Shown here piece after piece: positions 9,064-28,296 of a stretch of 64,000 bases of DNA (positions are counted from its first letter, which is position 1; every line of letters starts with the position of its first letter). Below the pieces are notes generated by a model. It saw nothing but the letters and a program-made list of their open reading frames with translations, had not been told where the DNA came from and did no database searches. The translations under genes and the position numbers were made by a program. Source of the stretch: a virus. Where the stretch lies: the IMG/VR virus record IMGVR_UViG_3300012363_000001, positions 62,001 through 126,000 of that record; one strand, written 5' to 3'.

Positions 9064-9546
9064 TCAAAGAGCTTTGTTGAGAATCGTCAGGGCCTGGTCG
9101 TAGTGTTCCTGCGTAAAACCTGTGACCATGCTTGTCTGTACCTGCCTGCCCATGTCCAAGTACCGGGTCTTGATATCATCAACGACCACGAACGACTCCA
9201 GCCCGGGATTCGCCGCCAACCAGGCCTGGATTTCATCGCTACGGTCACCGCGCTTAGAGGGCAGGCCAAAGCCTACCTGCTCGTAAGACTTCGGGGTTTC
9301 ACCGACAACCTCACCGGTGAATCCACGCTCGTTGAGGGTCTTCTGAAGTTCTTGAGGTTTGAAGTTTTCTCGCCAGCTGGAACTGATGATGACCTTGGCG
9401 CCGGTTTCCTGGACGAGCTTGGAGAGCAGCTGGACCTTATCATTGTCCAGGCCCAAGAATGTCTGATTCCAGGGCGGGAACACAATCCGGTCCGTGGTGT
9501 CATAGCAATTCAGGACTCCGTCCATGTCGAGGAAAATAATTTTCAT
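9064..9546 (-). CDS. HAD-family phosphatase-like protein (HAD_SAK type)
   Basis: 160 residues. HAD motifs are visible: motif I FLDMDGVLN (nucleophile Asp7, Asp9), motif II IISSSW (residues 54-58), a candidate Lys near 98 and motif IV VVDD (residues 123-124). The short cap-free form with SSSW matches the HAD_SAK ('Swiss army knife' RNA repair-like) group, which is linked to nucleic-acid end processing in phages and mobile elements. It lies directly downstream of the tRNA genes, which fits an RNA-related role; the substrate is inferred. A TGGTATACT box is seven bases before the ATG. Confidence 0.8.
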   Translation of the reverse strand: MKIIFLDMDGVLNCYDTTDRIVFPPWNQTFLGLDNDKVQLLSKLVQETGAKVIISSSWRENFKPQELQKTLNERGFTGEVVGETPKSYEQVGFGLPSKRGDRSDEIQAWLAANPGLESFVVVDDIKTRYLDMGRQVQTSMVTGFTQEHYDQALTILNKAL

Positions 9547-9644: not shown

Positions 9645-9717
9645 AGCTCGGAGAAGGATTCGAACCCTCGACAGCCGCATTACAGGTGCGGTGTTCTGAC
9701 CGCTGAACTACCCGAGC
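9645..9717 (-). tRNA. tRNA-Thr (TGT)
   Basis: 73 bases. Acceptor GCTCGGG/TCCGAGC, D stem GTTC/GAAC, anticodon stem CCGCA/TGCGG around loop CCTGTAA (anticodon TGT), T arm GAGGG-TTCGAAT-CCTTC with one G-T pair. CCA not encoded. Its 5' 38 bases also carry the last codons and stop of the upstream endonuclease gene. Confidence 0.93.
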
Positions 9718-10246
9718 AAATGAGGAAAGATTTGAGATAGTCGATGGCTTTTTGGAGGAGGTCTGTAGATTCTTTGAAGCCACCGAGAGAAGTATTGCAG
9801 GCATGACAAAGAAGACCTCTGGGCTTGCCGGTTTCATGGTCGTGGTCTACGTGAAAGTAACCATTGGTGGCTGCGCCTCCAGGTTCTTTTGTTCCGCAGA
9901 TGGCACAACCATTACCTTGCTTCGATAAAGTCTCATTGTACCAATCGAGGTCGATGCCATAGTGACTTTTTAGACGGTTGTTCTTTACGTTGTCGGGATG
10001 ATTTTTAATCCATTCTATATTCTTCTCAGGGTGCTCAGCATTGTATTGCTTTTGATACTCCAAAATATCCTCTCGATGCTTCTGGTAATACCTTCTATTG
10101 CTTTCAGCAACCCTCTCTGGATTCTCTAGTCGCCGCTTTGCAGCCCTCTCAGCAGCACGCTTCAAATCTTCTTCCGTTGGAGGATGTCGTTCCCTCCATC
10201 GCCTTTGTCTCTCTGCGTTTTTCTTTTTTCTTTCTTCATCTGCCAT
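9680..10246 (-). CDS. Endonuclease VII-like (zinc/HNH) endonuclease
   Basis: 188 residues. The first 100 residues are a very basic, helical DNA-binding region. Then come GCAICG, FHVDHDHETGKPRGLLC and CNTSLGGF, the zinc-bound endonuclease VII fold in which the DHDH element is catalytic. The ORF runs into the tRNA-Thr gene: the last residues (CSGSSAVRTPHL) are encoded by the tRNA 5' half. It is more AT-rich than its neighbours and sits between a terminator and tRNAs, as expected for a mobile (homing-type) insertion. A TGATATACT box lies ten bases before the ATG. Confidence 0.85.
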   Translation of the reverse strand: MADEERKKKNAERQRRWRERHPPTEEDLKRAAERAAKRRLENPERVAESNRRYYQKHREDILEYQKQYNAEHPEKNIEWIKNHPDNVKNNRLKSHYGIDLDWYNETLSKQGNGCAICGTKEPGGAATNGYFHVDHDHETGKPRGLLCHACNTSLGGFKESTDLLQKAIDYLKSFLICSGSSAVRTPHL

Positions 10247-10340: not shown

Positions 10341-11732
10341 TTAGAATGCGCCTCTGAGATTGTCTACCAGAACATTCTTTCTCGGATGCATAACGGCTAG
10401 CGTTACAAACCTGAAGTGCGCTTCAGGTATACTCAGGTCCGTAACTGCAAGCTTCAGCCTAGAATACGGGGCTAACTCCTTCAAAGCCATCGTATCGCCC
10501 TGAATCAAGAAGCCGGTGACGAAACCAGGATTCTTGTTGAACAGGTCGAGGAAGGTTGTCGTCGCAGCGCCGCTGTTGGACACACGGCCGATGAACCGCG
10601 AGGTCGCATCGTTGCCGCCGGCATTCGAACGGAACACGTTGAAGTACCGAACCACGCCGGAACCCGGAGGAGTGATGGTAACCGTCACGCTGTCGCCAGC
10701 GGCAATGGTCACAGTCACAGAGGTCGACTTGACAGACTCACCACGCTCGTTGACAGCTGAAGCGTAGTAGTTGTAAGTACCTGCCGGAGCACTGGTGCCT
10801 TGAGCAGCGTTGTCCGTCAGCGCGATGGAAGGCGCGCCAGGCGAAGAAGACCGTGCCGTTGCCGGACGGGTCTTGCCAGAGAGGAATCGAGAAGCCTCGA
10901 CGTTGACGGTTCCACCGGACACCCACTGACGCCGAAGGTCGGCGCTGGTGGCGTCCTGAGGAGCCCCGGCGAGGATGATTCGCTCTTTGCCGAACGAAAT
11001 CTTGTTGTAGGCGCTGAGAACCTTCGGGTCGACGACTAACTTGTCCGCCATACCGAAGTTCATCGAGGACCGGACACTGGCGTCTTCGATGTTGTCCTGC
11101 GTCAGGGTACCGCCACCTTGGATGACCACGGTGTCGTCAGACCCAAACTCGCCGAACATCAAGTCCGTTGCGTTCCGCTGACCGTCCGACATCCGGACCT
11201 GGGCATCCAGGCCGAGAATGTTCGGAAGACCGGGGATAGCAAGCATGGAGCCGTCGAAAAGACCCGCGTTCGAGAAGTCCGCCTTACCGCGGAAGCTGTC
11301 GAACTCGATATCGCCGGCAATTTTCTTCGCACCGTCGCTGGCTGCCCGCTCTTCGGCTTTGACGCCGTCGACCGTTGCCACGAGGTTTGCGACCACCGTC
11401 ACACGACGAACATGGCTATAATAGGCCATCGGGACCACGATACGAACGTATTCGCTCATTTCCTCTTGACCGACTGCGCCTTCGTTCTGGGCGGTAGCCC
11501 CGAAGATGCCGTAGCTGAGCTGACGGTCGAATTGGGCCAAGGTACTCTTGACCGGGTCGACTTTCAGCATCTTCTGCAGCTTAATGTGGCTGTCATCGTA
11601 GGTGACGTTGTTCATCACCGGCGAGAGGTCTTCAATCTGCAATGCGGAACCCTGGACCAAAGTCGAGGGAGCTGCATTGTAGTTGCCCGCCTCTAGGGCC
11701 TTCAGCAATGCTTGGGTGACTTCACTTGCCAT
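10341..11732 (-). CDS. Probable major capsid protein with inserted Ig/FN3-like domain
   Basis: 463 residues, preceded by a strong AGGAG site and followed by a strong terminator, as expected for the most abundant virion protein. It lies directly after the scaffold-like gene. The body (residues 1-290 and 405-463) has the composition of an HK97-fold capsid protein, but no named family was recognised. Residues about 295-400 look like an immunoglobulin/fibronectin III insertion (APAGTYNYYASAVNERGES, then YFNVFRSN, TTTFLD), likely exposed on the capsid surface. Residues 11-37 recur in the protease polyprotein (15206-19054) and residues 42-54 recur at the C-terminus of the 21694-22149 product. Confidence 0.8.
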   Translation of the reverse strand: MASEVTQALLKALEAGNYNAAPSTLVQGSALQIEDLSPVMNNVTYDDSHIKLQKMLKVDPVKSTLAQFDRQLSYGIFGATAQNEGAVGQEEMSEYVRIVVPMAYYSHVRRVTVVANLVATVDGVKAEERAASDGAKKIAGDIEFDSFRGKADFSNAGLFDGSMLAIPGLPNILGLDAQVRMSDGQRNATDLMFGEFGSDDTVVIQGGGTLTQDNIEDASVRSSMNFGMADKLVVDPKVLSAYNKISFGKERIILAGAPQDATSADLRRQWVSGGTVNVEASRFLSGKTRPATARSSSPGAPSIALTDNAAQGTSAPAGTYNYYASAVNERGESVKSTSVTVTIAAGDSVTVTITPPGSGVVRYFNVFRSNAGGNDATSRFIGRVSNSGAATTTFLDLFNKNPGFVTGFLIQGDTMALKELAPYSRLKLAVTDLSIPEAHFRFVTLAVMHPRKNVLVDNLRGAF

Positions 11733-11769: not shown

Positions 11770-13065
11770 TTACTCGAAAAATTTTGCCAACTGTTCCAGA
11801 CTTGCTCGCCGCTCGTACCAAGCCGTGATGAGTTCACGGTCGGACTTGGCCAACTTGGGGTCTTGGGTCAGTTGATTCAGCCGAGCCCGGACATCGCTCA
11901 GATTCTGTGGAGCTTTCTTTTCCTCAGCTGCAGGCGCGGGGGCCGCGTCGGCGCGGGGGATGAAAGAAATGCTGGTCACAGCCTTGCGGACCGGAGTCTC
12001 AAGGACGTGTTTCACGGCCTTGGTAAGAATTTCCACATCCTCTTGAAGAGTCTTGATAAGGGAGTCTTTCTCCGCTTCGGACTTCTTGAGGTTGTCTTGT
12101 TCTTGTTCGGACTTGCCCATGGCCTTGTTTCCTTTGGTTGCTGGGTCCGTGCTTTCCATGTGTTCCTTGCTCGGAGCCACATCAGCGAGTCTGCTCGGGC
12201 CTGCGGATTTGGCGTCCGTGGGCTTCACATCCAGAAGGCGGTTCTGTCCGCCATTGGCCTTACTCGGGGACACTGCGTCCAGTCGGTTCTCATTCTGAGC
12301 CAAGGGGCTGGGAGAAGGAGCCGGTGCCGGTGCTGCCGGGGAAGGGCTAGCCGGGGGTTGAGCCATAGCATCAGGAGCCGGTTGCTGCTGCGCACCGGCT
12401 TGCTGTTCTTTGGCCGCCATAGCAGCTTGAAGATGGATATCCAGTTCCTCGGGAGGAAGTTTCAGGTACTCAGACATCAGTTCCTCAGGGCTATATGACT
12501 GCATCGCACCTGGGTCCTGGGGTTGGTCACCGTTCTCGGGCGGAGCCTGGTCGGGTTGAGCCTCAGCACTCAATTCGCTGTGAAGGTCTTCAGGGGACTT
12601 ATCACCGCCGCTGGCACTACCTTCGCTGGCAGCGCTCGGAGACCCATCAGAAGGCGACTTGTCGCCAAAATCCGGTGAATCCTTGCTCAGTGAACCACTG
12701 GTCGTAGAAGATTCGCTCGCAGACCTCTCAGCCTTTTGAGCCGTAGAAGAATGAGAGCCTTCTCTAACCTTCGACCATTCCGGGCCGCCGTGAGCAGAAT
12801 CTTCAGCCTTTCGGGCAGACCTACTGGCAGAAGTACTGGATTCACTTGCAGACGGAGAGGCCTTGTGAACTTCAGGCAGAACTTCTTTGTCGTGATGTTC
12901 GGGGCTGTCGTGATAGCCATCGTGTTCCTTGGCTTTACGACCTTCCTCTACGAACTCACGCTCTTCAGCTTTGGCAAAGTTCCCTTTAGACGAATCGAAG
13001 GCCTTCGCTAGGTCGGCTTCGACGTCTTCGAGAATTGCCATAAGCTCTGAGTTTTTGATTTTCAT
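11770..13065 (-). CDS. Scaffold-like / prohead core protein
   Basis: 431 residues of mostly low-complexity Ser/Glu/Ala/Pro sequence with Lys, no cysteine, a Pro/Ala/Gln-rich middle (about residues 225-265) and a predicted coiled coil at about 335-375 (KSEQEQDNLKKSEAEKDSL). It is immediately upstream of the capsid gene, the usual place for a scaffold. The fold and protease sites are not visible by eye. A virion internal protein is the alternative. Confidence 0.6.
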   Translation of the reverse strand: MKIKNSELMAILEDVEADLAKAFDSSKGNFAKAEEREFVEEGRKAKEHDGYHDSPEHHDKEVLPEVHKASPSASESSTSASRSARKAEDSAHGGPEWSKVREGSHSSTAQKAERSASESSTTSGSLSKDSPDFGDKSPSDGSPSAASEGSASGGDKSPEDLHSELSAEAQPDQAPPENGDQPQDPGAMQSYSPEELMSEYLKLPPEELDIHLQAAMAAKEQQAGAQQQPAPDAMAQPPASPSPAAPAPAPSPSPLAQNENRLDAVSPSKANGGQNRLLDVKPTDAKSAGPSRLADVAPSKEHMESTDPATKGNKAMGKSEQEQDNLKKSEAEKDSLIKTLQEDVEILTKAVKHVLETPVRKAVTSISFIPRADAAPAPAAEEKKAPQNLSDVRARLNQLTQDPKLAKSDRELITAWYERRASLEQLAKFFE

Positions 13066-13607: not shown

Positions 13608-13655
13608 GCCTCTCAGCTGGAACAAAAATTGTGTGAAGCGACAATCTTTTGTTTC

Positions 13656-13970
13656 GTGAACTACGTCTGCTCAAAGTGTGGCCTCCCCAAGCCCAAGAAT
13701 CAGTTCCACGAGAGTCCCCACCGGGACAGGAAGAGAGAGGTTACGTCCTGGTGCCGGAAGTGCCGAAGCCAAGAATATTATCGGCGCCAGTACCCGGATA
13801 CGGTCTGTGAAGTCTGCGGGAACAACCGGCCCCTGGACGTGAACAGAGCCTGCCGGCGGTGCAACGCCAGGCGAAACCTGCGGCAATGCCAAACCTGCTT
13901 GGAAGTCCTGTCAGTGGACTTGCAGTTCTACGGCCGGAAGAAAATCTGTAAGGATTGCGCTAAGAAATAG
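13656..13970 (+). CDS. Zinc-finger protein on the opposite strand (inserted cassette)
   Basis: 104 residues from GTG 13656 (reading NYVCSKCGLPKPKNQF after the start); a TTG at 13629 would add nine residues. Five Cys pairs (CSKCG, CRKC, CEVCG, CRRC, CQTC) plus CKDC are spaced as repeated zinc knuckles. The CSKCGLPKPKNQFH element resembles the N-terminal module of phage HNH/endonuclease VII proteins, but no DH or HNH catalytic core is present. It may therefore be a degenerate homing endonuclease or a DNA-binding regulator. It is the only gene of its strand for several kilobases. Confidence 0.6.
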   Translation: MNYVCSKCGLPKPKNQFHESPHRDRKREVTSWCRKCRSQEYYRRQYPDTVCEVCGNNRPLDVNRACRRCNARRNLRQCQTCLEVLSVDLQFYGRKKICKDCAKK

Positions 13971-14069: not shown

Positions 14070-15206
14070 TCACAAGGCTCCCTCAGAACCCGGAACTAAA
14101 CTATGGACGTGATGCTGAGCCTTGCCCGGCTGATAATTGGCCTGGTGGCTGGCTTCCTTGGCCTGTTGCAGTGCTGCTTCGGCATGCTCCGGAACCATTC
14201 CGAATCCCATTGACACGCTGAGGCCATGAGTACCGCCGACAGGCGGCAGGGCTTCGAGCTTGGACCTCAGGACTCTAGAGAAATGAGCCGCTTCCTGGTG
14301 AGTTGGCACATGGACCACGAATTCATCACCGCCGGTACGAAAGGACTTTGCTTTGGCGCGTCCGATCGCTTCATCGAGAGCTGAACGAATTGCCATCCCG
14401 ATACCCCTGATGGCCTGATTACCGACTTCGTGACCGTGGGTGTCGTTGATGGACTTAAATTGGTTCCCGTCGATGTGGACGTGGATGCCCCGCCGCGGGC
14501 GACTGAGAAAATCTCGGTACGCTTTCAGATTCCCCATGACCGGAACCAAGGTGTCCTTGAATAGATGCCGGGCAATTTCCTCAGCGACGTAAGATTCGAT
14601 GCGGCCATCCTTCTGGGCCTTGCGGAGTTCTTGCATGGCCCTGCCGAGGCCAGACTCGCCAACGCCGTCAAGACTCATTAGCAATGCCTCCATCTTCTGC
14701 ATGGCCTGGTCTTCGTGGTCCTGGGGATAACGGATTGTGGCAACGCCCTGCGCTGCGTTCTGGAGAAGTCTCTGGACTTCCTCGGGGATAAGCTCGTGGC
14801 CATCAAGGAGGACGGTGCCATCTTCATTGACGGTGACGGTCTGAGGCGCTTCCATGCCCTGTCGATGGTACTCGAAAACATTCTCTCCCTTTGGCTGTTC
14901 GACATCTTCGAGTTTACCATGAACCATTGTCAAGTACGGCTGTAGGTCAGGATGTTCGCCCTGCTTCAGCTCTTCGAGACTGATGAGCTGCAGGTATGGT
15001 GAATGCTCCATAGACCAGATTTTCCGCGTCGCCACGGCCGGAGGTTGCCGCTCCAAGTCCCTGAGAAAACCTACATGGTCTTCCAGGACGTCCAGTCTGC
15101 CATCATGTAGGCTGAATTTCCCGACAAGGCTTCGCTCTATCGTGTCACTTCCATCTTTGGGATGCACGGCAAAGACCAGCCAGATGTTCTCATGTTGAAT
15201 GTCCAT
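14070..15206 (-). CDS. GGDEF-domain nucleotidyl cyclase in the head gene cluster
   Basis: 378 residues. Residues 1-200 are an unrecognised N-terminal region; residues about 215-360 are a complete GGDEF domain. It opens DTLVPVMGNLKAYRDF. An ungapped stretch then aligns Asp246, Asn254, Lys251 and Asn263 with PleD Asp327, Asn335, Lys332 and Asp344, and GGDEF falls at 292-296. The guanine-contacting Asp344 is therefore Asn here, and the RxxD inhibitory site is incomplete (RAKA). Diguanylate cyclases make c-di-GMP from two GTP; change at this base-contact position is known to relax specificity. The start overlaps the upstream stop as TAATG, so it is translated with the capsid protease polyprotein. 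Confidence 0.85.
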   Translation of the reverse strand: MDIQHENIWLVFAVHPKDGSDTIERSLVGKFSLHDGRLDVLEDHVGFLRDLERQPPAVATRKIWSMEHSPYLQLISLEELKQGEHPDLQPYLTMVHGKLEDVEQPKGENVFEYHRQGMEAPQTVTVNEDGTVLLDGHELIPEEVQRLLQNAAQGVATIRYPQDHEDQAMQKMEALLMSLDGVGESGLGRAMQELRKAQKDGRIESYVAEEIARHLFKDTLVPVMGNLKAYRDFLSRPRRGIHVHIDGNQFKSINDTHGHEVGNQAIRGIGMAIRSALDEAIGRAKAKSFRTGGDEFVVHVPTHQEAAHFSRVLRSKLEALPPVGGTHGLSVSMGFGMVPEHAEAALQQAKEASHQANYQPGKAQHHVHSLVPGSEGAL

Positions 15207-18200
15207 TAGTAATCCTCGGGACCACGGTAAGCGTGTGAATTCCAGAGTTTCATCCTCGGAAGTCCGTGCTTGAATTTCTCGTCATCGTTTATTTCCTTTG
15301 CCTTCCGGAGTCTTTCCATCGTCTGTTCGATGATATGCTGCGGGGCCTGATGCCTGACCATCTCATGACGGAGAGCATCCTCGTCAATGTCTCTGATGAA
15401 TTGACGGGCGCTATCGTGCACCGGAGCGCCGGTCCAATTCCGGGCAAGTTCGGTAAGCTCGTGAGGCTTCATGCTTTTGAAGTCTCTGCCCAGAAATGAA
15501 TACCGCTCGATATAGTCGGGAATGTTGCCCGGGTCCTCAAAAGCATATCCATGGTCAAGGACCTTCATTCCTTTGGGCGTTACCATCCAGTTGTGGTCAT
15601 GTCGGTCTGGCACTCCCAGGATAAGGTCTTGAGCCATCAACTTGTCGAGTTCACCGCTATCACCCAATTGCTGAAGCATTGCCCGGTGTTGAGGAGAATC
15701 ATGGTAATGCTCGCCGCCTTTGATTTTCTCGATGACTGCAAGTTCGTCGCCGGAATCTGGATGGTGTACCACCGAGACCGTGGGCAGGTAATTGCCGAGC
15801 TTGAAAACGTTGTGGGCTAGGTTATGAAACAATCCCTCGCGCCGTGCTTCGTTGAAAGCTTCGTGAGGCTCAGTCAGGGCCTTGCCACCCCCCGCAGGCG
15901 TATAGGCGCTCCGGTGTATGATAGAACTCCCTTTTACAAACGCCCAAGACCCAGTTGGAGCTTTCCGCCAATGAGACATTTCGCTTTGAGCCGTAGGGGC
16001 TTCCGGTCGTCTGCCTTCCTTGTTGAAATCAAGGCCGTGGACAAGCTTATGTTGTTCCGGGCGCTGATTGTACTCACCGACACTATGACGCTGAGAATCA
16101 ACAATATTTCGCAGCCGGTTCTGCTCATTCTTTTGAGCAAATTCCTGAGCGTAAGCTTTCGCCCGTTCCGGAGTACCCAATACCGCCTTAGCCGGCGACT
16201 TAAGACCCTGTCGGTCAAAAATATTCGGGTCGCCGAAAGCCTTCCGGAGTTCAATGGTCATGGCCTCGAACTTCATCACCGGATTCGGTTTCTTATTTAA
16301 CCGGCGCTTGGCAGCCTCTAACAGCTGCGGTGCCAGGTATCGATAGTAGAGCATCATTGCCGGAACTTCGCCATATTCCTTGACCCAAGAATGCATGGTT
16401 ATGGCAGTCTTCTCGGGCAAAGACGTATCCAGGGATTCGCCTTCGTTCTTGGTCAGATGCGGAGCAATTGCTTCCCAGAAAGGTCGATGGTCGGTGGCCT
16501 CATTATGAGCCAGAGTCGACAGGCCGCGGAATTTTTCGTGAGGAGCGATGGCAACCCAATTCTTCCAAAACGCTGGGAAGATAGCGTCTTCGTCTGATTC
16601 AAATTCCGAGCCCCAACGCGGATGCTCGCGCATGTGCTTGACGGCGTCATGGTGCTTGGCGTAATAGCGGTCGATGGCGTTCAGGACTTCACTGTTGTTC
16701 GGATTCCAGAGCAGGTCCTTGACGTAAGAAATCGTCGGATTGTCTTTGCCCTTCTCCAACCCGAACAGATACCGGCTCATGTGCGTATCCGGGACTATGA
16801 CGTTTCCACCACCCATCATCCCGTACGTATACCTGGCCGTCTTGGGAGCAAGACCAGGAACCACTGGGCCTTGGTATTCGCCAGGGTCTGGAAGACCTTT
16901 ATCGATGTCCCGATTTCGCTTCGAATTCCAGAGCATGGCGCGGTGTTTGTGGTCCATCAGCTCCTGGACGGCGGAGCGGGCATCATGGCGATGGCGATTT
17001 ACCAATTCCACAAGACCTTGGTGGAGAGTATGGTACTTCTCCATGTTCTTGAACTTATTGTTCGCCAACATGAAGCTGCTGATATCCCCGGCCTTGCGGT
17101 TAGTGAGCTTCGAGTCTCTCTTATTCCGGAGTTCTTCTTGGAGCCGTTCGAAATGGCTGCGGCCATGCTCTGGGAACACTGACGGATTGTCTCGACCTAG
17201 CCAATCCTGACGGATGTTCGAAAATTCGGAATGTCGAGGGTCCAGGCCCGTGTGCTTCATCGAATCCACAAGATGACCGTACATCAATTCCTGCACCGGC
17301 ACCGGAGTATTAGGGCTGAGCTGGGAGAAGAGAACTCCGTGCATAATGACTTCCTCGGGGAGTTTCCCTTCTTTCAGAAGCTTATGAACCTGGGCCCAGT
17401 TCTCAGTAGCATAATCGTGAAACTTGCTGAGTTTGGGGTCATTGAGGATATTGTGGAAAGCTTCACCAGCGCCCTTGTTCTCTTTATCCCGAGAGGGGAT
17501 ATACATCGGGAAGCTGCCCTTTGGGGTATGCAGAATTCCGGCTTTCTCGTCGAAATGAGGTTGCTTGATTTGAGGATTCGGCTGCACGGGTTTGCCGCGG
17601 ATGGTGGCTTGCTCAGTCTCGGCCTTGCCACTTTCTACCCATTTCTTAAATGACGGGGCTTGACTGCCACGGCTACCAGGCTTTCGAGGTTCACCTTCCT
17701 TCTTGTAAAGTTTCCATTCCCCAGAATTATGATGCTGAGAAGCAAGTTCTTTGGCATTCTCAAGAGTGGAGGCTTTAGCAGATGACCTTAGAGAGTCGTG
17801 CCCTTTTTTGTAATACTGGACGTCAAAACCTCCCGATTGGTGTGGCAATACGTGGTATTCTCCATGACGGGCTCCGGCAGAATGTACTTTTGTTTCCCCA
17901 GCCCATGATTGCTTTCCGGCAGTCCAGTTCAATGATTCTTTTTCGGCTTTCTGAAGAGTTTCCCCAGGAGCCTCACCATACTTACTTCCGACCCGGGCGT
18001 CAGTCAGCTTCCGGACAAAGTCGATGTCGTCTTGGTGCTTTTCTTCCCACTGAGGCCAATGGTCTTCGCAGAACCAGACCCTGGCCATGCCTTCAGCCCA
18101 CCGGGCCTCGTATCTGGGCGGCTTTGAGCATTCCATGCACTTGGAAAAAGATTCCTGAGCCTTCCTGAGCTTCATCGTGTAATTATCGACGAGGTTCGAG

Positions 18201-19054
18201 AATCGGTCGATGAAATCGTCACTGGCCTCTGGGAGCTTGTGCTTCAGGACCTCACGAAACGGCGTCTTCCGGTCCCAGTCCCTAAGTGCTGCCCGGGCCT
18301 GATTGCGGAGATGAGCCAGGTGCAGACTTCGGTCTTCGACTTGAAGGGCAGCGCCGCCGGTCATAGCCGAAGGAGCCACGTTATAGTTCCCGGCTTCAAG
18401 AGCCTTCCGGACGGATTCAACTTTGGCCAATGCCCGCTGGAGGACATCACCATCCAGAACCGGATTGAACTGTAACTCAGAGCCGCCGAGTCGAGTGTAA
18501 TTAGGGTGCTCGTTAAGCTTCAGGCTGTCATCTGGTTTCTGTTTGAAGCCCTTCGGGGCGTTGGGGTCTTCCACGACGCCGACAACGCAGGATTTGTTAC
18601 AGGGCTTGACCGTCAGAGCCGCCTTCCGACACACGGTCCTGAGCAGTCTCTTGTCTTTGGATTCGAGCGTTGAACCCTCGATGGAAAAGCCGACGATGAT
18701 GGGCTCGTCATTGGCCAGGTAGTCGCGAATCTGAGCGGCCAGAGCTACTGCATTCGGATGACCGGAACCGTCAAAGAGGCGCCCGATGCCGTAAATCAAC
18801 GGCAACCTGACCTTATGATAGAACTCAAGCTCCCGGTCGTTGTCGCAGTCTTTCTCGGAAAATATTTTCTTGGCGTAGATTATTTTCCCAACAATGTCCT
18901 GACTGCCCTGGTCTCCGTTGTGTTCCCAGTTGAGAATACCTTTGCCCTCAACAAGGTCGGAAATGTCTGCGCCTTTGATGTCGAGGATTTCACCGGAGCT
19001 GTCAATGGCCTCGGACGCGAGGACGCCGTCAAGTACCATTCCTGTAGACGCCAT
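15206..19054 (-). CDS. Prohead protease polyprotein with HhH-GPD-like and kinase-like regions
   Basis: 1282 residues after an AGGAG site. (1) Residues 1-165: capsid maturation protease, with His45 in NWEH and Ser124 in GFSIEG. (2) Residues 217-243: copy of the major capsid N-terminal segment (KALEAGNYN, then ALQVED). (3) About 305-335: Cys/His cluster CMEC...CEDHW. (4) About 525-860: helical region with HhH-GPD features, VPGLAPKTARY then VIVPDTH; Lys738 and Asp756 are 18 apart, as are Lys120 and Asp138 of endonuclease III. No iron-sulphur cysteines. (5) About 1030-1235: atypical kinase core, GVPDRHDHNW (Asp1150, Asn1155) then VLDHG (Asp1167), as in HipA/PI3-kinase-like enzymes. Probably self-processed, with downstream parts as capsid cargo; this is inference. 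Confidence 0.75.
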   Translation of the reverse strand: MASTGMVLDGVLASEAIDSSGEILDIKGADISDLVEGKGILNWEHNGDQGSQDIVGKIIYAKKIFSEKDCDNDRELEFYHKVRLPLIYGIGRLFDGSGHPNAVALAAQIRDYLANDEPIIVGFSIEGSTLESKDKRLLRTVCRKAALTVKPCNKSCVVGVVEDPNAPKGFKQKPDDSLKLNEHPNYTRLGGSELQFNPVLDGDVLQRALAKVESVRKALEAGNYNVAPSAMTGGAALQVEDRSLHLAHLRNQARAALRDWDRKTPFREVLKHKLPEASDDFIDRFSNLVDNYTMKLRKAQESFSKCMECSKPPRYEARWAEGMARVWFCEDHWPQWEEKHQDDIDFVRKLTDARVGSKYGEAPGETLQKAEKESLNWTAGKQSWAGETKVHSAGARHGEYHVLPHQSGGFDVQYYKKGHDSLRSSAKASTLENAKELASQHHNSGEWKLYKKEGEPRKPGSRGSQAPSFKKWVESGKAETEQATIRGKPVQPNPQIKQPHFDEKAGILHTPKGSFPMYIPSRDKENKGAGEAFHNILNDPKLSKFHDYATENWAQVHKLLKEGKLPEEVIMHGVLFSQLSPNTPVPVQELMYGHLVDSMKHTGLDPRHSEFSNIRQDWLGRDNPSVFPEHGRSHFERLQEELRNKRDSKLTNRKAGDISSFMLANNKFKNMEKYHTLHQGLVELVNRHRHDARSAVQELMDHKHRAMLWNSKRNRDIDKGLPDPGEYQGPVVPGLAPKTARYTYGMMGGGNVIVPDTHMSRYLFGLEKGKDNPTISYVKDLLWNPNNSEVLNAIDRYYAKHHDAVKHMREHPRWGSEFESDEDAIFPAFWKNWVAIAPHEKFRGLSTLAHNEATDHRPFWEAIAPHLTKNEGESLDTSLPEKTAITMHSWVKEYGEVPAMMLYYRYLAPQLLEAAKRRLNKKPNPVMKFEAMTIELRKAFGDPNIFDRQGLKSPAKAVLGTPERAKAYAQEFAQKNEQNRLRNIVDSQRHSVGEYNQRPEQHKLVHGLDFNKEGRRPEAPTAQSEMSHWRKAPTGSWAFVKGSSIIHRSAYTPAGGGKALTEPHEAFNEARREGLFHNLAHNVFKLGNYLPTVSVVHHPDSGDELAVIEKIKGGEHYHDSPQHRAMLQQLGDSGELDKLMAQDLILGVPDRHDHNWMVTPKGMKVLDHGYAFEDPGNIPDYIERYSFLGRDFKSMKPHELTELARNWTGAPVHDSARQFIRDIDEDALRHEMVRHQAPQHIIEQTMERLRKAKEINDDEKFKHGLPRMKLWNSHAYRGPEDY

Positions 19055-21693: not shown

Positions 21694-22149
21694 ATGGGCA
21701 CCAGCTACTCTAGCGCCGCAGCGGAAACCCTCCGGAAATGGACCGCGGCTTGTCTGATTTCCACCAAGAGCCAAAATACCTACACGGTCAAAGGTAAGGC
21801 CTATTTCTGGGAATCCAGTAACCGTGAGCACGACGACGGAGCCATAACCGGCAGCGTCTACCGGGTGACTGAGACCCGAAGCGATGGCCGGGAAATGGTT
21901 CGACCAGCCGGAGCCTTTCGAATCAATGGCGATGGCGCCGTGGCGCTGGCGCCGAAATTCCTCCGCGATGCAGCCGAAAGCCGAGTCGTGGTCAACGGCG
22001 ACTTCCTTGACGGGACTATTTCTGTAGAGGAAGGGGTTTCTACCTGGTCGAGGAAGCTTCCGGATATCAACGTCGATGGGGCCGGCGAGAACGTTCTCGA
22101 CGTCACCTACGACGAAAGTCACGTCAAAATGCAGAAAGCTACCATCTAA
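21694..22149 (+). CDS. Hypothetical protein ending in a capsid-like segment
   Basis: 151 residues with a strong AAAGGAG site. The first 120 residues look like a compact beta-rich domain with no recognised family. The last 15 (VTYDESHVKMQKATI) match residues 43-54 of the major capsid protein (VTYDDSHIKLQK), also at DNA level over about 40 bases. It lies on the strand opposite to the late genes with its own promoter. It may be a virion accessory protein using a capsid-derived tail for interaction, or a recombination relic. Confidence 0.6.
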   Translation: MGTSYSSAAAETLRKWTAACLISTKSQNTYTVKGKAYFWESSNREHDDGAITGSVYRVTETRSDGREMVRPAGAFRINGDGAVALAPKFLRDAAESRVVVNGDFLDGTISVEEGVSTWSRKLPDINVDGAGENVLDVTYDESHVKMQKATI

Positions 22150-22196: not shown

Positions 22197-22346
22197 ATGG
22201 CAAATGTGAAAAGCGTAGTTGTCGAAAACGGCACGGTGGTTATTTACACGACGTCGGGAGTTGTTACCGTGGACCCCCAGAAACGAAACGGGTATCTAGT
22301 GGCATACAACTCTAACAAGGGAACTCAGACTAAGATAATCAGCTAG
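22197..22346 (+). CDS. Small beta-rich protein (49 aa)
   Basis: ATG at 22197 reads MANVKSVVVENGTVVIYT; beta strands alternate with charged turns and there is no cysteine. GAAAGAA lies upstream. Its TAG stop at 22344-22346 overlaps the TAG of the convergent MuF gene in the palindrome AGCTAGCT. Part of the second rightward cassette. Function unknown. Confidence 0.55.
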   Translation: MANVKSVVVENGTVVIYTTSGVVTVDPQKRNGYLVAYNSNKGTQTKIIS

Positions 22347-23098
22347 CTGTTCTGTTTGGCGTACTCATCATGGCCTGGGCCTTTGTATTCGACCATGCCA
22401 TCCTTGTTGAACCCGTAGCCAGGCATAAGAGTCGTAAGCACGCAGCGACAAAGTGGATGCAATCCCCCGACCTTCGGGTCATCTTCCCCTGGCTTGTGGT
22501 ACCCGTGGCCGACTTCGGAAAGTTTATAGACTCGGGGAGTACCGCCAGCATTTAAGTGAAGACGCCGACACTCAGGGCAGAGAGAAATGTCCCGGACCAC
22601 GACAAAAAATACGTTTGGGTCTTCGACTCCCGCGGCAGCATTTACCCGCACGATACCATCCATGATGCTCAGGTTTCGAGCCTGGGTGGTCTCAGTCTGA
22701 ATGATTCGGCTGACATCGTTCGTGACTTCGCCCCAGAGCTTTGATAGCTGGCCCCCGAGCACCGTCTCAACGTTCGCCGGTACACCCTGATGCGCGGCCC
22801 CGGTAATGAACGACTGGACCCCGTGGACTATCTTGGCCTTGGCCCGGAGCTTGCTCGCATCCAGGTAGTTGCCGGCAATTTTCAGGACTGTATTCAGGAC
22901 ATCTTCGCTTGGCTTCACGCCTTCTTCGGCCGCAGCCGCTTCGAAGACCCCAGGCAAGGTAAGTTCATGAAGGAAGCCAACAGCCAAGGTTTTGCCTCCG
23001 GCATAACGACCCAGAAGCCGGGTCTTGGCCCGGTTGAAGATTTCATCGACAGCATCTTCTATGATTTTGACCGCACCGGGAGAAAGCCTAGCCTTCAT
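22343..23098 (-). CDS. MuF-like minor head protein
   Basis: 251 residues. The C-terminal half has the phage Mu gpF head-morphogenesis signature: VRDISLCPECRRLH (Cys174, Cys177) and GLHPLCRCVLTTL (His214, Cys217, Cys219), a zinc-like knot. The N-terminal half is helical and probably contacts the portal. It lies directly after the portal gene, with GAGGA overlapping the portal stop. These proteins enter the procapsid in few copies and can be ejected with DNA. Confidence 0.88.
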   Translation of the reverse strand: MKARLSPGAVKIIEDAVDEIFNRAKTRLLGRYAGGKTLAVGFLHELTLPGVFEAAAAEEGVKPSEDVLNTVLKIAGNYLDASKLRAKAKIVHGVQSFITGAAHQGVPANVETVLGGQLSKLWGEVTNDVSRIIQTETTQARNLSIMDGIVRVNAAAGVEDPNVFFVVVRDISLCPECRRLHLNAGGTPRVYKLSEVGHGYHKPGEDDPKVGGLHPLCRCVLTTLMPGYGFNKDGMVEYKGPGHDEYAKQNS

Positions 23099-23100
23099 GG

Positions 23101-25311
23101 CTATTTCCTCGGCAGATGTTTCAGCGCGATATCGGTGATTTCCTTCAGCGTGTCCTGGCTATCTTTTTCCCAGGCTTCAAGGGCGCTGGTCACCAGCTTC
23201 CGTTGTTGAGCTATCAGGCGTCGTTTGGAAGGAGGCAATTGGTTTTCGCTCTTGCTAAGGAGTCCAATCATTTGGTCGATGGACCGAGTCAGGTCCTGAC
23301 CTTGGTCACCAGCAGATTGGTCAGAGCCGCCTTGTTCGCCCTGTTCCTTGACCTGCTCGCGGTCTGCTCCATGCTGCTCACGACTCTTCGCCGGTCCACC
23401 ATCACCACCACTATCCGAAGGGGGGCCTTCTTGTCCAGGCAGTGGCTGACCTTGAGCTGCGGCTTGCTTAGCCTGCTCGGCTTGCTGTTGCAGCTGCTGT
23501 TGCTGCATGAGATTCTGAACCTGCGTGAAATAGAACGGGTCCCGGAGATACGCATAGAGAGGGTCTTTGCTGGCGCCTGGGACTTCAAAAAATTCCTCCA
23601 TGATGACGCCCACGGGCACATACTTGTCAAGGACAGCCTGCCATTGAGGATTGAGGATAAACTTGCCGCCAAATTTCTTCCCAAGCGGCTTCTTCTCGAC
23701 GCGCTCCAGAACATCGTCCATGGTCATGTGAATGCCCATGTCCTGCTGGAGTCTAATGGCTTCCTTTTCGGCAGTATCTACGTCGAGGCCAATGAACTTG
23801 ATGGTACAAATCTTCGCCAGTTCCTCGTCAATCAGCGGGAAGATTCGGCTGTTAATAAAGTTCTGGAACTGGCCCACTAGGGGTCTGATGCCAACGTCAC
23901 GGTGGGCTTCGAGCTTGTATTCGTTATTACTTTCTGAGAGAGCCTGATTGTTGGTACCACGACTCAGGTGTGCGTAGCCCGGGAGTTCCTCAGGACTCAT
24001 CTGGAACGCAGAGAGAATAACCCGGGCATTCGTATCAGAAAGATACTGGAATTCCATGTCGCGGCTACTGTTGTCGATTGGATACCAGCCAATCTCATCA
24101 TCGCTGCCGACGCCAAAGATGGGCATACGCCATGCGTTGGCAACACTGTTGATGCTGGCGTTGAACTGCTGCCGAATCTTGGAGATAACTCCCTCGTCGA
24201 CGTCATCCGACTTGATGACAATCATGCCACGGGCTGCGCGACCGGATTGGAAATAGAGCTTATTATGGTTCGTGATATTGATATGGGTCGTGACCGCAGC
24301 AATCATCGTGTCGATTGGCGTCAACGGATACCCGTCAAGTTCAACGTCAGAGACCGGATAGAAGTTGTGGACTAAGCATTCATCAGGAGTGAAAGCCTGC
24401 ACCGGACGACCGTGAACAACTTGGACCCAGGCGTATTCGTCATTCGCGAACTTCTCCGGCTCCAGTTTTCGGTTCTTGAGTTGCTCCAACAGCTTTCGAG
24501 CTTCTTGGCGGACGCTTTCCACTGCTTCCCTTTGGGGCGAAGCTTGGTAGATAGTACCGGCGTCGATGGGCCTGAAAGAATGGAATTCCCTATTACCATC
24601 CATGGTCTTCTTGAAAATGATTTCCGTTGCCGTCCGACCGAAGATGACCGCATTGCGGGCAGAGATGAACAGAAACTGATTGAAGGTCAGGGCCTCTTTG
24701 TCAGACCAGCCGGTGGTGCTACCGCAATTCAGGAGCCTCAATTCGGCCTTACGAATCTTCTCCTGGAGTTTTTTCTTCTCTTCCTTGTCCAACTTCTCCA
24801 TATACCCGGGCTCAGCTTCAATCTTGAATCCGGTTCCGAAGCGGTCTGGCTGTGGACGTCCGAAGACAGCTACCTGGTTGCAGCGGGCGTTGGCAATAGA
24901 CGCCACAAGGTCGTCTTGGATACTGATTCGCTTCAGGATGTCATCGGGCAGGAGCCGAAGCTTTACCCGGTAGACACTCTGGTAAATGTTGTGTTGGCTG
25001 GGGTCTGTCTCAAAGGCCAACCGCTCAATGCTGACCTTGCCTGGTCCGTTGAGGACGTTAAGAACCGACTTCACAAGAGGACTGGAACTTGCTACTTTCT
25101 TATTCAGTTCCTCTTCGAGCTTCTTAAATTCCGCTGCCTCCAGGACGTTGAGGGTATCGTCAAAGGAAGGGTAATTCATCATCATCTGGATGTTGCCGCT
25201 GCCCTTTTTTACAGACTTAGCCACCTTGGTCGGCCGATTGCTGACAACAGTCTCGATGAGGCTTTTAGCGAACGGTGAGAGGTCCGCTTCTATGGAAGTC
25301 TTTTTGGCCAT
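23101..25311 (-). CDS. Portal protein
   Basis: 736 residues, a large portal of the type in big myo- and siphoviruses. Portal-like features: ISARNAVIFGRTATEII, PLTPIDTMIAAVTTHI in the stem/wing region, LSDTNARVILSAFQM (about 423-437), then GYAHLSRGTNNQA and the crown helices. About residues 595-680 are a Gln/Gly/Ser-rich linker, followed by a helical tail (EITDIALKHLPRK). It lies between a virion gene and MuF in the standard terminase-portal-MuF order. A fragment is duplicated in 6169-6453. Confidence 0.85.
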   Translation of the reverse strand: MAKKTSIEADLSPFAKSLIETVVSNRPTKVAKSVKKGSGNIQMMMNYPSFDDTLNVLEAAEFKKLEEELNKKVASSSPLVKSVLNVLNGPGKVSIERLAFETDPSQHNIYQSVYRVKLRLLPDDILKRISIQDDLVASIANARCNQVAVFGRPQPDRFGTGFKIEAEPGYMEKLDKEEKKKLQEKIRKAELRLLNCGSTTGWSDKEALTFNQFLFISARNAVIFGRTATEIIFKKTMDGNREFHSFRPIDAGTIYQASPQREAVESVRQEARKLLEQLKNRKLEPEKFANDEYAWVQVVHGRPVQAFTPDECLVHNFYPVSDVELDGYPLTPIDTMIAAVTTHINITNHNKLYFQSGRAARGMIVIKSDDVDEGVISKIRQQFNASINSVANAWRMPIFGVGSDDEIGWYPIDNSSRDMEFQYLSDTNARVILSAFQMSPEELPGYAHLSRGTNNQALSESNNEYKLEAHRDVGIRPLVGQFQNFINSRIFPLIDEELAKICTIKFIGLDVDTAEKEAIRLQQDMGIHMTMDDVLERVEKKPLGKKFGGKFILNPQWQAVLDKYVPVGVIMEEFFEVPGASKDPLYAYLRDPFYFTQVQNLMQQQQLQQQAEQAKQAAAQGQPLPGQEGPPSDSGGDGGPAKSREQHGADREQVKEQGEQGGSDQSAGDQGQDLTRSIDQMIGLLSKSENQLPPSKRRLIAQQRKLVTSALEAWEKDSQDTLKEITDIALKHLPRK

Positions 25312-26352: not shown

Positions 26353-28296
26353 CTAACTGATATCCCAGACGAAACTTCCCTTCTTCCCCTTAGTCGTCGG
26401 TTGTTCAGATTCAGGAATTTCCTCGCCGGTGTTTTCGGCAATGATTTTGGACATCCAGTTCTCTTCGGTATACTGTTCCCGCTTTGCCGCCAGAACCTCC
26501 GGATATTCAGAGTCCACGTATGTCTGCACCATGCCTTCGGATTCAATACTGGATTTTATTTTTCCCTTCGGCGCGAAAACGTTCATGATGTAGTACCGAA
26601 TGGCGTCACATTCGTCATCGTTTTCCTCGGCTGGTATTTCGCTGACAGTCCCGTCGGCATTGAGCTTGAAGTGATACTTGCTCATCATCTTCAACAAGAA
26701 CTCGACACCAGCATCGCCCTTCAGGAAGAAAAGGGTCGGATTGCCCATGGCCGGCATGAGCTTCATCCGCACAACTTCAATGCCAGCCTTCACGCTTCCT
26801 GGATATTTGACCCACTCCTTCATTTTGAAGCCCTTGCGTTTGAAGGTCTTCGTATCCGCTGGAGCTTCGGGGTCGCCAAAGCAGGTCGGATTCCAGGGTC
26901 TGATTCTCTGGGTATGTTCTATCTTCTGGTCCAGTTCCAGACCAGCTATGGCTATAACGTCGAGAACGTAAGCATTTGCTCCGTCGACGGCACCGGTAAC
27001 AACAGCATAGTTGTGACTGAAACCATAGTCGATGCCGGCAAAGAATCTCATTCCCCGTTCGAGCATAAGTTGAATGAGTTGTAGCTTCGTCAGATTTGGG
27101 TCGCACTCTTCGGCGGTTATTTTCTGCCACATCTGAGCAGCAGTAAGGGCATGGATTTCACGATTGAGGTTCGGATAAATCAAACCCGTGTCCGAGGGCT
27201 TCCAGCAAAGGAGTTGGGCTTTGGCGCCAGAAACAGAAACTTCCTTGAACTTGTCCTGAACGTAGTCAATGCCCTTCAAGAGTGGGGACTTGGACTTTTG
27301 CATGGTGGCGAGCCGCCCACGACAAACAGCAAAGAGCTTGCAATTCTTCAGACAGCCGGCGTATCCTTCATCCCGGGCATAAAGGGTCTTGTGCTCATCG
27401 TTTAGGTTCTCGTACTCAACTTCGCTGATGGCTCGGAGGTTCTCCCGGCTGTAGTAGATGGGAATCTTGGGCTCGGCTGGAAGATGTCTTCCCGGCGGGC
27501 AAGATTCTGTGACGTCGATAATGTTCCAATGCCGAACCTCAAGACCAGTGTTCGCAGCATTGTCGATTTCCCTTTGAACAATAGCCCACGAGAATTCCCG
27601 AGTGGAAGTCAGAACGGTAATAGGTTGCTTTCCTTTCCAAGGAGCAGGGATGTACTTCGCGTCTTCATAGGCTTTCTTGTTTTCAGTCGGGATGACGTCA
27701 ATTTCGTCCACGGACATGTAAGGGACGTGCTCGCTTCGGGAACCGGCGGTATTACAGATGACAATTTGAATGTAGTTGTAGATTCTTTCGTACGTTTCCC
27801 GAACAGCTTCGGGAAGACCTTCCCATTGAGCCTGCGTCAGGTTCTCGCCAAGCTCTGGATTGAAAAAACGAAGATATTCCAACCGGCGGTCGTTGCGGAC
27901 CGTAACGAAAGGGGTTAGGAAAGATTTGTTGAAAAAGTCCTTGACGTAGCTCTGAGCTTTCTTAGACTGAATTTCAGTAGCTGCCATGTGAGCGCCACTG
28001 CGGCCCATGTGCAAAATCATTAACGCTTCAAGAATCGATGCGCCTAATGTTTTGAAACCGTCTCGGCAGCTGTAGGCCAGAATTCGACTGAAAGCTGGCT
28101 TATTCTTGCGGCTCTCGTTGTAAACTTCCCAGACAAAGTCCATCGGGGAAGAAGTTGATTCAGGGTCAACGATACAATCCGGAAGGTCAAGACCTATGTA
28201 ACACCGTATCCAATCCTGAAGGTCTTCCTTCGTCTCACAGGAAAAGAATACAGCATTGGCTAGCCGGGCCTTATCTGATTCTGTCAGGTCGCTCAC
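26353..28296 (-). CDS. terL: Terminase large subunit
   Basis: 647 residues from a GTG start that overlaps the upstream stop as GTGA. The ATPase domain has a terminase-type Walker A, SCRDGFKT (Lys82), and Walker B YMSVDEID near residue 200. The RNase H-like nuclease starts at FAGIDYGFSHNY (about 430), with GDPEAP in the middle and NDDECDAIRYYI supplying the last acidic residues. It packages DNA into the procapsid through the portal. Four Cys near 320-335 (GCLKNCKLFAVC) may bind metal. Confidence 0.92.
   Translation of the reverse strand: MSDLTESDKARLANAVFFSCETKEDLQDWIRCYIGLDLPDCIVDPESTSSPMDFVWEVYNESRKNKPAFSRILAYSCRDGFKTLGASILEALMILHMGRSGAHMAATEIQSKKAQSYVKDFFNKSFLTPFVTVRNDRRLEYLRFFNPELGENLTQAQWEGLPEAVRETYERIYNYIQIVICNTAGSRSEHVPYMSVDEIDVIPTENKKAYEDAKYIPAPWKGKQPITVLTSTREFSWAIVQREIDNAANTGLEVRHWNIIDVTESCPPGRHLPAEPKIPIYYSRENLRAISEVEYENLNDEHKTLYARDEGYAGCLKNCKLFAVCRGRLATMQKSKSPLLKGIDYVQDKFKEVSVSGAKAQLLCWKPSDTGLIYPNLNREIHALTAAQMWQKITAEECDPNLTKLQLIQLMLERGMRFFAGIDYGFSHNYAVVTGAVDGANAYVLDVIAIAGLELDQKIEHTQRIRPWNPTCFGDPEAPADTKTFKRKGFKMKEWVKYPGSVKAGIEVVRMKLMPAMGNPTLFFLKGDAGVEFLLKMMSKYHFKLNADGTVSEIPAEENDDECDAIRYYIMNVFAPKGKIKSSIESEGMVQTYVDSEYPEVLAAKREQYTEENWMSKIIAENTGEEIPESEQPTTKGKKGSFVWDIS

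Follow-up and report, generated by a model that had tools for sequence, protein, structure and literature searches.

A GGDEF-domain protein encoded with the head maturation protease in a family of large phages: a predicted cyclic-dinucleotide synthase

The locus examined here raises the question of why a phage should encode a GGDEF domain, typical of enzymes that make cyclic dinucleotides, among the genes that build its head. Second-messenger enzymes of phages are usually viewed as accessory genes expressed in the infected cell. The window, a 64,000-nucleotide stretch of an IMG/VR virus record of 164,871 bases, contains the only GGDEF gene of that record, and this gene lies in the head module, next to the gene for the prohead protease (Table 1).

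A GGDEF gene overlapping the prohead protease gene

The open reading frame (ORF) encodes 378 amino acids, the C-terminal part of which is a GGDEF domain. It matches the Pfam profile PF00990 over residues 240–357 with 57.8 bits (E 1.5e-15; curated cut-off 23.8 bits). An AlphaFold model based on 47 aligned sequences has a mean pLDDT of 86, with the GGDEF blocks mostly above 95, and its top Foldseek matches are the solved diguanylate cyclases 4wxo, 6d9m, and 4zmu; a model built earlier on four sequences was of low quality (mean pLDDT 61). Profile and fold thus uphold the GGDEF domain named in a first-pass annotation of this DNA and show it to be full-length. When PleD chains are aligned across the domain, D246 corresponds to PleD Asp327, and the stretch D246-GNQFKSI-N254-DTHGHEVG-N263 aligns without gaps, N254 falling at Asn335 and N263 at Asp344; the gap-free alignment and the placing of N263 agree with that annotation.

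The protein shares with the PF00990 cyclases PleD, WspR, and SadC the fold, the metal-binding Asp (Asp327), Asn335, Lys442, and the GG[DE]EF motif, and it has a Lys at position 332. It differs from them in having Asn263 in place of the guanine-contacting Asp344, in its phage head-module context, in a private N-terminal domain that accompanies the GGDEF domain family-wide, and in the absence of a receiver or sensor domain. The RxxD product-inhibition site (I-site) is incomplete, as noted at the outset, with R283 present and Ala286 replacing Asp362. An Asp344 guanine contact characterizes enzymes that make strictly c-di-GMP, and GGDEF domains at large do not all have it.

The upstream gene encodes a polyprotein whose conserved part shares 47% identity with the "putative prohead protease" of Myxococcus phage Mx1. 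The profile phrog_1028 (head maturation protease) is matched by 23 of 29 homologous protease domains (best 4.1e-10), and His45 and Ser124 of the window protease fall in invariant alignment columns (His52 and Ser131 in A9 numbering); searches of the protease domain set against Pfam and PDB found no match. Based on the Mx1 annotation, phrog_1028, and the invariant His and Ser, we assign this ORF as the predicted head maturation protease. The junction of the two genes reads GAGGATTACTAATGGAC, in which TAATG shares one base, so that the overlap first reported is real, and a ribosome-binding-like GAGG precedes the ATG of the GGDEF gene. The protease polyprotein also contains a large, well-conserved domain (residues ~485–940) and a PI3/4-kinase-like stretch (1141–1181), the latter a weak match below Pfam's cut-off, to which a separate kinase gene in Mx1 is related.

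Table 1. Features of the head module, with positions in the window
Feature	Position	Strand	Basis
Major capsid protein, 463 aa	10341..11732	−	phrog_752, E 9e-49
Scaffold-like low-complexity protein, 431 aa, C-terminus conserved	11770..13065	−	conservation
Conserved head-module protein, 151 aa	13098..13553	−	conservation
GGDEF protein: N-terminal domain ~1–160, linker and helices 160–235, GGDEF ~218–357	14070..15206	−	profile and structure model
GGDEF motif, residues 292–296	14319..14333	−	alignment
Asn263 codon AAT, at PleD Asp344	14418..14420	−	alignment to PleD
N-terminal domain, residues 1–160; Mx1 counterpart a separate gene (150 aa)	14727..15206	−	homology
Predicted prohead protease polyprotein, 1282 aa	15206..19054	−	Mx1 annotation and phrog_1028
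Protease polyprotein parts: protease domain ~1–165, capsid-like motif 217–240	15206..19054	−	
Protease polyprotein parts: conserved domain ~485–940, PI3/4-kinase-like stretch 1141–1181	15206..19054	−	
Motif KALEAGNYNVAPSAMTGGAALQVE in protease polyprotein, match to major capsid protein N-terminus	18335..18406	−	
Conserved protein between portal and protease, 251 aa, MuF-like by eye, without Pfam match	22343..23098	−	
Portal protein	23101..25311	−	
Large terminase	26353..28296	−	45% identity to Mx1 gene so annotated

Gene order, fusions, and active site in related phages

Pattern scans starting from a single sequence, P0001 or the Mx1 protein, gave almost no homologues, and the family was revealed by a search with the major capsid protein, which fetched 80 loci; a profile scan of these loci raised it to 29 distinct members from phages of ~165–182 kb, Mx1 included. 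Most other "phage" tblastn matches lay on unannotated scaffolds and were GGDEF proteins of bacterial type that carry sensor domains; these were set aside. In the family, the GGDEF gene lies between the prohead protease and major capsid protein genes. The Mx1 genome (OR576727.2) has the same gene order as the window, with the protease (WNM70322.1) followed by a 150-residue gene homologous to the N-terminal half of the window protein, the "nucleotide cyclase" (WNM70324.1), and later the major capsid protein. The protease, scaffold, and capsid genes are homologous and the GGDEF domains are about 47% identical, but in Mx1 the N-terminal domain is a gene of its own, position 344 is Asp, and position 332 is Gly. 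Iterated searches yielded more homologues with this order. The position beside the protease, and with it the placement of the GGDEF protein in the head module, is thus conserved in the window, Mx1, and further contigs.

In nine contigs (L106, L109, L111, L112, L135, L158, L162, L163, and L177), the protease, N-terminal domain, and GGDEF domain form one reading frame, while the window and 15 of the scored contigs have a separate GGDEF gene; in most non-fused members the two genes overlap or adjoin. In tailed phages the prohead protease works inside the prohead. The fusions and the overlapping or adjacent genes therefore imply a shared place of action for the GGDEF protein and the protease, and the fusion in particular makes association with the prohead much more likely, such that we consider this location probable.

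In a capsid-protein tree, a quick reconstruction that has several long branches and for which SH-aLRT is the only support measure, contigs with a GGDEF domain fall into a single large clade and the Mx1 group. A sister clade has homologous capsid protein and protease, the protease gene being on the opposite strand in most contigs, and no GGDEF domain was found there near the protease or anywhere in 17 records of 144–177 kb; in seven positive-control records, the same search found exactly one GGDEF each. Because the sister clade builds its heads without it, the GGDEF domain is an accessory function rather than a core structural need.

Loss of the catalytic residues in all close homologues had been named beforehand as grounds for abandoning the proposal. 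Instead, 27 of 29 members retain Asp327, Asn335, the GGDE core (SGDE in one of them), and Lys442. Eleven members, that of L163 among them, also have Lys332 and Asp344 and so are fully canonical. Lys332 is replaced by Gly in 13, among them most of the window's subclade, and Arg446 and the I-site show little conservation, so the active site of the subclade is not canonical. In a comparison of five lineages, none of the seven core positions varies; relative to the general conservation level, this gives p about 5e-4 in a simple hypergeometric test, which takes no account of the tree. For close pairs, dN/dS is 0.04–0.07 in the GGDEF domain and 0.11–0.15 in the capsid protein, these being rough ratios given the high dS of several pairs, which indicates strong purifying selection on the GGDEF domain. 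Catalysis is likely across the family, with slightly less certainty in the window's subclade, most members of which have Gly in place of Lys332; for the predicted activity in general, we consider the odds favorable. Two members, L135 and L154, are degenerate and have lost catalytic residues; together with L179, their GGDEF domains, with catalytic residues lost or the domain split, suggest decay or an altered role.

Position 344 is Asn in nine members, Asp in 18, and Glu in two. Asn occurs chiefly in the window's subclade, inside which two nested members have Asp, and five changes of state in total are needed on the tree; L104 and L130 (Asp) sit beside L023 and L105 (Asn) in the capsid-protein tree. 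From this distribution, we read Asn as the derived state of the subclade. Since Asn is kept in the window's nearest relatives and the gene arrangement recurs in many phages, neither is a chance occurrence. Asn is also found at four of 126 GGDEF sites (about 3%) in six bacterial genomes, a rough guide only, as the genomes were picked via homology matches. The substituted base contact had led to a comparison with the Hypr enzymes, such as GacA and Bd0367, in which the Asp344 position is also changed and the motif is GGDEF rather than GGEEF. This comparison fails at the residue itself: Hypr proteins have Ser or Thr there, and their product depends on this residue together with the shorter Asp of GGDEF (PMC6456294, PMC9140294). 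The window protein agrees with the Hypr GGDE[F/Y] motif but has Asn, as do some ordinary bacterial GGDEF domains, while most of the family has Asp, and we reject its assignment to Hypr. Asn is the same length as Asp, so the geometry of the site could persist while the pattern of hydrogen bonds changes. Asn263 may thus allow a relaxed choice of base without demonstrating one. Because Asn is derived within the subclade and occurs at a low rate in bacterial GGDEF domains, and Hypr enzymes use Ser or Thr, a non-standard product is possible but not indicated, and we think it rather unlikely.

Proposed role and alternative explanations

Based on these observations, the protein is best read as a predicted head-associated cyclic-dinucleotide synthase that is packaged and delivered, a reading to which we assign a probability of roughly 0.48. 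The GGDEF protein would be made late alongside the prohead protease, from overlapping genes or, in the nine relatives, as a single polypeptide, and would enter the prohead with it. It would then remain in the capsid and be delivered along with the DNA, and in the newly infected cell its GGDEF domain would make a cyclic dinucleotide, most likely c-di-GMP for the family overall, that alters host signaling or confuses nucleotide-based defense. Prohead location, catalysis, delivery, and purpose are what we infer here; injection is tentative and falls somewhat short of an even chance. The gradings given for location, activity, injection, and product are judgements rather than measurements.

The accessory status of the domain and its partnership with the protease fit a cargo enzyme delivered with the genome, as for the polyvalent proteins of phages. 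As described by Iyer et al. 2017 (PMC5512222), these are multidomain proteins encoded among virion genes and argued to be injected effectors; they include peptidase and kinase-like domains, with GGDEF domains noted as rare members. The window GGDEF gene is likewise encoded among virion genes. Unrelated catalytic domains, protease and GGDEF, share one polypeptide in nine relatives, and in the window the GGDEF protein is separate. The present system differs in that the peptidase is the head maturation protease itself and the arrangement is conserved through a phage clade, and the passages of PMC5512222 consulted describe no protease–GGDEF fusion. We therefore regard the window system, by analogy, as a variant of the polyvalent protein idea. 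The first-pass annotation had held that such an enzyme is not a known part of head modules. This needs qualifying: the Mx1 record already labels a homologue "nucleotide cyclase" beside the protease, and GGDEF domains of virion-delivered polyvalent proteins were predicted in 2017 (PMC5512222). The Mx1 genome announcement (PMC10720576) annotates the cyclase without discussion or functional study of the gene, and a search of open-access papers for GGDEF and prohead protease, with subscription papers and preprints largely outside its coverage, returned only the polyvalent-protein paper and a review.

The enzyme might instead be active but not packaged, serving through late expression from the head operon to raise cyclic dinucleotide in the infected cell, for example altering surface polysaccharide or pili and so excluding superinfecting phages. 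The late-operon position and the unfused genes agree with this, as does the reported use of c-di-GMP and 3',3'-cGAMP by Myxobacteria (PMC8844925), but a covalent fusion to the protease in nine contigs is hard to reconcile with a domain acting outside the head, and we consider this explanation unlikely. The GGDEF domain might also be a nucleotide-binding, non-catalytic head part, such as a GTP-gated regulator of the protease or a core or scaffold element. The constant partnership with the protease, the partial loss of Lys332, and the loss of catalytic residues in two members point this way; however, the sister clade has the homologous capsid protein and protease without GGDEF, and 27 of 29 members retain the metal-binding and catalytic acids, so the chance of a non-catalytic role is likewise low.

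Two further alternatives draw on the altered residues of the subclade. Relaxed or switched base specificity, giving cGAMP, c-di-AMP, or another product, in line with the non-standard product suggested in the first-pass annotation, would account for the nine members with Asn at the base contact, since Asn could by chemical inference pair with the Watson–Crick face of adenine, and single substitutions at this position alter the product in Hypr enzymes (PMC6456294, PMC9140294). Against a strict change of product, close relatives alternate between Asp and Asn; moreover, Hypr residues are only Ser or Thr, Asn also occurs in bacterial GGDEF domains of unknown product, and Lys332 is lost in most of the subclade, making this quite unlikely. 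The altered base- and phosphate-contact residues would also suit a sponge that sequesters nucleotides or cyclic dinucleotides without synthesis, a reported anti-defense strategy (PMC11722364), but the cyclic-dinucleotide-binding I-site is incomplete and the catalytic acids are kept, which renders a sponge very improbable.

Several points count against the packaged and delivered synthase: the active site of the window's subclade is not canonical, two members have lost catalytic residues, and no EAL or PilZ proteins were found in nine of these phage genomes, so that these phages show neither a reader nor an eraser for c-di-GMP. The prohead protease has been reported both to trigger CBASS, a cyclic-nucleotide defense, and to determine its evasion (Richmond-Buccola 2024, as cited in PMC12072042). 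An elaborated version, in which a capsid-borne synthase is co-assembled and released by the protease and injected, and an early product in the cell, with non-standard bases in the Asn subclade, misleads or jams the host's cyclic-nucleotide immunity or signaling as a decoy, is improbable as a whole. The long-kept GGDEF partner or fusion of a capsid maturation protease suggests that the virus particle may carry a signal-making enzyme, and as Mx1 is cultivable and its host genetically tractable, packaging, activity, and purpose are all testable.

Other features of the head module

A motif at the N-terminus of the major capsid protein (KALEAGNYNxAPSxLxxGxALQxE; window 11631–11702, minus strand) recurs in the protease polyprotein, following the protease domain. 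It is present in the capsid protein in all nine records tested and in the protease in most of them. Pieces of it also occur in small unrelated ORFs (L023 14655–15011, L184 503–1393, and L183 218–703) that resemble capsid-gene fragments, and the motif was dropped as an argument for a packaging tag. It may serve in head targeting or cleavage, or may represent copied gene fragments. An opposite-strand ORF at 21694–22149 (plus strand) ends in NVLDVTYDESHVKMQKATI, like NVTYDDSHIKLQKML of the capsid protein, and is apparently another capsid-gene fragment.

A small cysteine-rich ORF with CxxC repeats (13629–13970, plus strand) lies directly downstream of the GGDEF gene but runs on the opposite strand; Mx1, L014, and L016 have homologues in the corresponding position. 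Downstream of the capsid gene are a recombination endonuclease VII-like gene (9680–10246, minus strand; PF02945, E 1.5e-22), a relative of which sits between the protease and GGDEF genes in L022 (7121–7477), and a HAD-family protein of the "Swiss Army Knife RNA repair" type (9064–9546, minus strand; PF18143, E 4e-28). The head module is also carried by a 45-kb contig binned as a Saccharibacteria genome (L023, CALMSM010000181.1), which is probably a mis-binned phage.
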